In this document: one piece after another, positions 23,539 through 25,194 of the stretch
Position numbering within the stretch: the stretch's first letter is position 1
Layout: every line of letters begins with the position of its first letter
NCBI GenBank assembly: GCA_007123395.1
Contig: SKLD01000510.1
Location: 1-38,173 of the forward strand
Source: Opitutales bacterium
GTDB lineage: Bacteria; Verrucomicrobiota; Verrucomicrobiia; Opitutales; Oceanipulchritudinaceae
Length of the DNA: 38,173 nucleotides
Direction: 5' to 3'
The notes under the pieces: generated by a model
Told to the model about the DNA's origin: nothing
Seen by the model: the letters and a program-made list of their open reading frames with translations, nothing else
The model's database searches: none
Translations under genes and position numbers: made by a program

Positions 23539-24177
23539 TCAGCCGAGCGAAGATTCTTCGTCGGCCACGCAGATCCAGCACTTGACGCCGATGAGGCCGT
23601 AGAGGGTGCGCGCTTCGGAGAAGCCGTAGTCGACGTTGGCGCGGAGCGTGTGCAGGGGCACCGAGCCGGCCCGGGTCGTCTCCGTGCGGGCGATGTCGGC
23701 ACCGCCGAGGCGGCCGGACACTTGGAGCCGGATGCCGAGGGCGCCCATGCTCATCGTGCTCTGTACCGTCTTCTTCATGGCGCGGCGGAAGGAGATACGG
23801 CGCTCCAGTTGGAGGGCGACACTCTCGGCGACAAGCTGCGCGACAAGATCAGGCTTCTTTACCTCTTGGATATCGAGGAGAATGTCGCGGCCCACCATTT
23901 TGGATAAGTCGGCCTTGATCTTTTCCAACTCCTGACCCTTGCGACCAATGACAATGCCGGGGCGGGCGGTGAAGACCTTGACGCGCACGCGGTTGCCGGC
24001 GCGCTCGATGAAAATGCGCGGAACGGCGGCGAAGCGGAACTTCTCCCCGAGGAACTCGCGGATGCGCTGGTCTTCGGCGACAAGGGCGCCGAAGTCCTTC
24101 TTGCGGGCGAACCAGCGGGATTGCCAGTCGCGGCGGACGGCGAGACGGAAACCGATCGGATTGACTTTCTGACCCAT
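23539..24177 (-). CDS. rpsC: Ribosomal protein uS3
   Basis: 30S protein lining the mRNA entry channel, 212 aa (E. coli 233), with a shorter C-terminal tail. MGQKVNPIGFRL fixes the start at 24177. The KH domain has ARPGIVIGRKGQELEKIK; the C-terminal domain shows GRLGGADIARTE and LRANVDYGFSEA. It starts 7 nt after rplV. Confidence 0.98.
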   Translation of the reverse strand: MGQKVNPIGFRLAVRRDWQSRWFARKKDFGALVAEDQRIREFLGEKFRFAAVPRIFIERAGNRVRVKVFTARPGIVIGRKGQELEKIKADLSKMVGRDILLDIQEVKKPDLVAQLVAESVALQLERRISFRRAMKKTVQSTMSMGALGIRLQVSGRLGGADIARTETTRAGSVPLHTLRANVDYGFSEARTLYGLIGVKCWICVADEESSLG

Positions 24178-24551: not shown

Positions 24552-24902
24552 TCAGGAATTGAGTTGGAAAGTTTGGATACGCACGCGGTCGCCCGGCGCG
24601 ATGACTTGCCCGGGTACAAGGTCGGTGATGAGGGCGACGGCGCGCTGCCCCGCGACGGCGGCAAGCAGGACGGTGGCGACGTAGGTGTCGCCGCGGACGA
24701 CCTGCGCGAGCATTCCTTCGCGGAAACCGGCGTCGATACCCCCGGCAAGGACGATGAGGTCCGCGGCTTCGGTCTCCGCCACTTCCAGAACCTCGCCTTC
24801 ACCCGCTGCATGCAGCGGGGCCTTGGCAAAGCCCGGCGACTCCGCGAAGGCAATGGCCGTCGCGAAGGCGCAGAGGAGAACGATCTGGAAGATACGGAAC
24901 AT
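24552..24902 (-). CDS. Secreted or periplasmic small protein of unknown function inside the S10 operon
   Basis: 116 aa; I recognise no established family. The N terminus is a good Sec signal peptide: MFRIFQ, a hydrophobic core (IVLLCAFATAIAFA), then a likely AFA-E cleavage near residue 20. The mature part of about 95 residues is Val/Ala/Gly-rich with alternating strands. It carries GGIDAGFREGMLAQVVRGDT and VPGQVIAPGDRVRIQ, a small beta-barrel style pattern reminiscent of MreC- or FlgT-C-like domains (weak, from memory). It sits between rpsS (22-nt gap) and rplV (10-nt gap), a junction that is normally uninterrupted. Codon bias and GC-rich composition look like its neighbours. No Shine-Dalgarno sequence. 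It is probably real because frame, signal peptide and tight spacing agree. Confidence 0.8.
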   Translation of the reverse strand: MFRIFQIVLLCAFATAIAFAESPGFAKAPLHAAGEGEVLEVAETEAADLIVLAGGIDAGFREGMLAQVVRGDTYVATVLLAAVAGQRAVALITDLVPGQVIAPGDRVRIQTFQLNS

Positions 24903-24924: not shown

Positions 24925-25194
24925 TTACTTCTTGGTATGCGGCTGGTGGCCCCTGAACTGGCGCGTGGGCGAGAACTCGCCGAGCCGGTGCCCCACCATG
25001 TTTTCCGTCACATGGACGGGAACAAAGCCCTTGCCGTTGTGGACCTCGATATTGAGGCCGACGAATTCGGGCGTGATCTGGGAGCGACGCGACCATGTGC
25101 GGATGGGTTTGCGGTCATCCTTGGCTTGGGCGGTTTCAATCCGCTTCCAGAGCCCTGGATCCACAAAGAAGCCTTTTTTCAGTGAACGTGCCAT
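24925..25194 (-). CDS. rpsS: Ribosomal protein uS19
   Basis: 30S head protein that pairs with S13, 89 aa. [19 protein letters not shown] at the start and [21 protein letters not shown] near the end are textbook. The 22-nt gap to rplB upstream is normal; the next gene downstream is the unexpected secreted protein and not rplV. Confidence 0.98.

Follow-up and report, generated by a model that had tools for sequence, protein, structure and literature searches.

The window analysed here, a stretch of 38,173 nucleotides from a member of the Opitutales (Verrucomicrobiota), carries on its minus strand an S10 ribosomal protein cluster that has the usual gene order and is otherwise ordinary. Between rpsS, which codes for ribosomal protein S19 (24925..25194, minus strand), and rplV, which codes for L22 (24185..24541, minus), lies an open reading frame of 116 amino acids with an ATG start (24552..24902, minus). 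We call it gene X; it codes for a putative signal sequence followed by a single C-terminal beta domain. It starts 22 nt from the rpsS stop codon and leaves 10 nt to the rplV start, in full agreement with the length, strand and spacing given in the original prediction. Further upstream, rplB (ribosomal protein L2; 25217..26059, minus) precedes rpsS, and the gene after rplV is rpsC (ribosomal protein S3; 23539..24177, minus, the position of its start codon being approximate). The succession rpsS-rplV-rpsC ranks with the best-conserved gene neighbourhoods of bacteria.

By inspection, the N-terminus of the X protein, MFRIFQIVLLCAFATAIAFAES, is a Sec-type signal sequence (residues 1 to ~21; 24840..24902, minus). 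A simple hydropathy rule detected a hydrophobic N-terminal stretch in 119 of 124 X proteins, and 122 of the 124 conform to an equally simple AXA rule; among the five hydropathy exceptions, at least one (L093) has a wrong start and another (L109) falls just below the threshold. This agrees with the Sec signal peptide originally noted and with the envelope protein deduced from it. Given this signal sequence, X is predicted to be exported by Sec and to reside in the periplasm, and the same feature argues against its being a cytoplasmic component of the ribosome; Pfam and NCBIfam searches did not return any ribosomal family for it. A lipobox rule identified a lipobox-like motif (e.g., LAAGC) in L119 and six other X proteins, which suggests a lipoprotein form in some lineages.

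The signal sequence is followed by a conserved six-strand beta domain (~residues 34-112; 24567..24803, minus), delimited by alignment, AF2 modelling and hhalign, and displaying in the alignment the motifs GFR.GM and I..GD.V. Modelled by AF2 from an 8-row alignment, the window protein has a mean pLDDT of 80.4 and consists of a helical N-terminus of low confidence and six strands; block pLDDT values are 81-95 over residues 31-110, with means exceeding 90 in the blocks that span residues 51-110. As modelled, the domain would fold as a small barrel that weakly resembles FlgT_C and MreC, in line with the beta-barrel factor that had been proposed. A PDB fold search with this model retrieved small barrels of F1/V1 ATPases, alanine racemase, MreC and FlgT, none of them at E <= 0.001; because all matches lie above this value and many are unrelated barrels, they do not indicate any specific function. 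Sequence searches of Pfam, NCBIfam and PDB did not assign X to a family, just as none had been recognised at first reading.

The region is rich in G+C and full of long spurious open reading frames in several frames, so that the X frame by itself would be little proof of a gene. Homologues of X were found in 20 of 55 relatives (E <= 0.01), all 20 of them between rpsS and rplV. The copies from three genomes of the window's genus have the same length, align without gaps and keep the frame, with 43/67, 39/63 and 28/39 of the substitutions in the congeneric pairs falling at third codon positions, and their dN/dS (dN divided by dS from the pairwise table) is ~0.11-0.18. X is under purifying selection, its protein diverging faster than those of its neighbours (dN 0.04-0.11 vs 0-0.02). 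Other genomes carry it on contigs of very large size (e.g., G036:C1, G047:C1, G105:C1, G203:C1), so that it is not an assembly artefact. X is a real gene. The original prediction would have given way to a spurious frame, or to a recent insertion in a single genome, had relatives carried no homologue at the rpsS-rplV junction; that is precisely where the 20 homologues are. High G+C content, with its many long frames, could well produce a spurious one, and we nevertheless leave this explanation practically no probability, as it is already refuted by a protein sequence, a location and a selective constraint that are conserved in many genera.

Across the Opitutales, X lies directly before rplV in 75 of the 101 genomes scored. 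Of 177 genomes in the order, 86 are hit by a profile made from 20 X proteins, some of the weaker hits being paralogues elsewhere, and X occupies the space between rpsS and rplV in 38 of 40 further regions from the order; in L135 and L136, which belong to one genome (G075), the junction is interrupted by contig ends. Both of these ends bear X-like sequence, at the start of C227 (with rplV) and at the end of C92 (with rpsS), and correspond either to a single gene cut by a break in the assembly or, if the bin is partly contaminated, to two versions of it. In the 26 genomes of the order without X at the junction, which was located by way of rplV, the rpsS-rplV spacer measures at most 179 nt and contains no long ORF; because X-less junctions are so short and empty, the presence or absence of the gene is clear-cut. 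Some X-less spacers close to X-bearing relatives are longer than usual (L055, 179 nt; L065, 112; L066, 122; L071, 90) and may be gene-loss scars. Named records that carry X include Opitutales MAGs and Cerasicoccus frondis (Verrucomicrobiota; L096), 7 named loci having been found with closer alignment. Cerasicoccus and its relatives (L096, L101-L105) possess an X form of 183-187 aa, with an extra acidic, proline-containing linker between the signal sequence and the beta domain.

A restriction of X to the Opitutales was rejected, since class-wide coiled-coil proteins also precede rplV. In the class, the 20-protein profile finds matches in 240 of 286 genomes; those from outside the order are mostly located in open frames of ~240-390 aa. 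Among 30 class genomes, rplV could be located in 29: a long X stands between rpsS and rplV in 19 of them (gap 654-966 nt), and the junction is short in the other 10. Of the class genomes scored beyond the order, 24 of 34 have X directly before rplV, as do 24 of 30 genomes of other Verrucomicrobiota classes, these 30 having been picked partly for matching, so that 24/30 is no frequency estimate; in those other classes, many genomes are hit by a profile built on the long form. Over the whole scored set, a non-random sample of genomes, X precedes rplV in 123 of 165, with a median gap of 13 nt (<= 30 nt in 103/123), and nearly all X-less genomes have a short rpsS-rplV spacer.

The common form of X outside the order (~210-310 aa) comprises a signal sequence, a coiled coil, called from its appearance and from coiled-coil-type profile matches, and the C-terminal beta domain, whereas the window protein consists of signal and beta domain only. 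An hhalign comparison of window-type and class-wide alignments (99.1% probability, E 3.8e-19, 81 columns) identifies the class-wide beta domain as homologous to that of the window protein. The suggestion that the factor might be lineage-specific is too narrow, given that X occurs at rplV phylum-wide and usually in the longer, coiled-coil form. The short form is the rule in the Opitutales, and some members from other classes are also short (e.g., L170, L173), perhaps having arisen independently. No description of X at the rpsS-rplV junction was found in the literature searched, including parts of papers that deal with signatures of the Verrucomicrobia, the outer-membrane proteome of Akkermansia, the genome of Methylacidiphilum and the essential genome of V. 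spinosum.

The gene keeps its place even where the operon does not. In 12 of the 24 X-bearing genomes from other classes, rpsS is absent upstream of X and is found elsewhere, behind rplB, and in all 12 X heads the rplV cluster. Within ~1.5 kb downstream of rpsS, 11 of these genomes have no homologue of rplV or X, and in the twelfth (L211) the contig terminates at rpsS. The S10 operon is broken in these genomes between rpsS and X, which begins the half containing rplV and rpsC, and the stable partner of X is rplV. Such split operons occur in several families of other classes (L172, L175, L180-L184, L189-L192, and L199 with L200-L211). In L191 and L192, the gene preceding X resembles tatC.

A linkage conserved to rplV and not to rpsS, together with the tight spacing to rplV and the hydrophobic N-terminus of nearly all X proteins, would suit an action in translation or targeting, in which the nascent signal sequence of X draws S10-operon polysomes to the membrane, or X regulates there by binding ribosomes or the operon mRNA. 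We consider such a role very improbable: the conserved part is a beta domain, preceded by what in most X proteins looks like a cleavable signal sequence, and this would place the domain outside the cytoplasm, no RNA-binding family was matched, and operons without X are otherwise normal at the junction.

In a tree of RplV and RpsC from 164 genomes (123 with X), the X state changes 20 times, compared with ~37 times when labels are shuffled, and well-supported branches force at least 8 changes; the tree was built quickly and contains long branches, and change counts alone cannot tell gain from loss. X occurs on either side of the deepest split, and X-less junctions form scattered clusters. Because X is present on both sides of that split, a single ancestral gain followed by repeated loss would be the simplest history and the one that fits best. 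Repeated loss, which extends to most of the window's own family, implies that X is not universally needed.

Concerning expression, the coding strand from rplC to rpsC does not contain any terminator-like or promoter-like (sigma-70-like) site, and the spacing around X is operon-like. From this spacing and the gene order, X is likely co-transcribed with the S10 operon. Codon usage, compared with background genes in eight genomes, gave z values of -0.4 to 2.8 for X and of 0.9 to 4.7 for the flanking ribosomal genes, X being clearly within the ribosomal range only in G168 and nearly so in G064. Based on few genes per genome and indicative only, this comparison argues against translation of X at the levels of ribosomal proteins in most of the genomes tested, contrary to the expression at ribosomal levels that had been envisaged.

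The missing codon bias in most genomes is one of the observations that could make of X a mere passenger, that is, a gene for an envelope protein, inserted into the operon in an ancestor of the phylum and kept by inertia, or because its removal disturbs rplV expression, and whose product is not linked to growth. Frequent clean losses that leave the junction intact and the faster divergence of X relative to its neighbours point the same way. On the other hand, X has remained in frame, with its signal sequence and beside rplV, in deep branches and even across operon splits. Moreover, since the losses show that its removal is not permanently harmful to rplV, a constraint on rplV alone does not explain why X has been retained. 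A passenger gene is the main rival to the reading that we prefer, and we regard it as rather unlikely; roles in pili or secretins, or in localising mRNA, are less likely still.

The reading that we prefer, to which we give an even chance, is that X is a periplasmic scaffold or adaptor, transcribed with the ribosomal genes, old and vertically inherited. X would be an ancient envelope gene of the Verrucomicrobiota held directly upstream of rplV, in most cases with rpsS on its other side, transcribed within the S10 operon, and its product would be exported by Sec. The C-terminal beta barrel would act as the binding or adaptor module of a periplasmic scaffold; most of the phylum would have it mounted on a stalk of coiled coil, and the Opitutales would have the barrel alone. 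Because X would be made from the S10 transcript, its transcription would follow ribosome synthesis, and hence growth, with its translation set below that of the ribosomal proteins. That this amounts to an ancient, phylum-wide coupling, whereby a periplasmic scaffold encoded in the S10 operon links, at the level of the transcript, the growth of the envelope to the production of ribosomes, is a more tentative proposal, which we hold to be doubtful. X is a clear exception to the conserved rpsS-rplV-rpsC order, coding for a presumably exported protein that would have been there since near the origin of the phylum. It is a possible marker for the Verrucomicrobiota and might provide a handle on how envelope growth is coordinated with ribosome synthesis. 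These ideas could be put to the test now in Verrucomicrobium spinosum, should that species carry X, as saturated transposon data and targeted mutagenesis exist for it (PMC12283558).

Two known families, FlgT_C and MreC, were considered for X, and membership fails in both. Sub-threshold matches to FlgT_C (PF16538) were obtained for 5 of 9 class-wide X proteins (best E 6.2e-5); one class-wide protein scored in detail reached 14.3 bits, compared with a curated cut-off of 27 bits, and neither the window protein nor the other 19 Opitutales members gave a match at E up to 1. The fold search also listed the FlgT structure 3w1e (E 7.9e-3, TM 0.49 by query), alongside numerous other small barrels. FlgT_C shares with the X domain its small size, its beta structure, a glycine-rich motif of similar type and its place in an envelope protein that is, or in the case of X is predicted to be, exported. 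X lacks LysM and the other FlgT domains, and its genes reside in the S10 operon. The FlgT_C domain also occurs in the type IV pilus protein TsaP. X could be imagined as part of a type IV pilus, a secretin or a flagellar envelope ring, like FlgT and TsaP: no Pfam family is matched more often by the class-wide proteins than FlgT_C, 3w1e is among the fold matches and the LysM protein of PDB 6ve2 shows a weak profile match over the same motif (E 1.1). This appears improbable to us, although somewhat less so than a role in translation: every match is sub-threshold, pilus or flagellar genes do not adjoin X, and secretin genes occur in 170 of 177 genomes of the order irrespective of X. A TsaP-type protein, which combines a LysM domain with a FlgT-like one and functions with PilQ, would likewise be at odds with the lack of a LysM match and with the presence of X in G091, where no secretin was detected. 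MreC and secretins occur almost throughout the order, whether X is present or not, and, for this reason, their co-occurrence does not identify a partner for it.

The NCBIfam MreC model gave weak sub-threshold matches over the beta domain of 3 of 9 class-wide X proteins (best E 7.7e-6), no match to the Pfam MreC family (PF04085) was listed for X, and a true MreC is encoded elsewhere in the same genome (e.g., G000:C118). As predicted, the long forms of X would share with MreC an N-terminal membrane or signal segment, a coiled coil and a C-terminal beta barrel; X differs from it in having one beta domain and, in the Opitutales, no coiled coil. The sub-threshold FlgT_C and MreC matches and the fold matches agree in pointing to envelope scaffold domains, and it is by analogy with MreC and FlgT that we would guess at a scaffold role for X in envelope assembly.

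As to its position, secY in the spc operon is a known example of an export-pathway gene within a ribosomal-protein operon. It is near-universal and codes for part of the translocon, whereas X, sampled in one phylum only, resembles an exported substrate. The hypothetical protein CT421.2, a signature protein of the PVC group, has been put forward as a marker of these phyla (PMC3444138). As described there, it measures ~53 to > 80 aa; X is larger, predicted to be exported and tied to rplV. Closer to X by profile are several coiled-coil proteins of the Opitutales (L077, 2953-3693 on G000:C316; L090, L091 and L092), which share its C-terminal beta domain; they measure 246-270 aa, have an N-terminal transmembrane segment and lie outside the S10 operon, and those of L090-L092 are encoded next to a gene resembling that of glucose-6-phosphate isomerase (Pgi). 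Besides X, some genomes of family f30 encode two tandem related coiled-coil proteins of ~290-300 aa, also outside the S10 operon (G260:C2:71308-72566; G235:C15:12503-13761; G195:C1:659537-660796; G249:C34). X is a protein family with a remarkable, long-held position, and of a kind already known on both counts: a non-ribosomal gene in a ribosomal operon and an envelope protein combining a coiled coil with a beta barrel.
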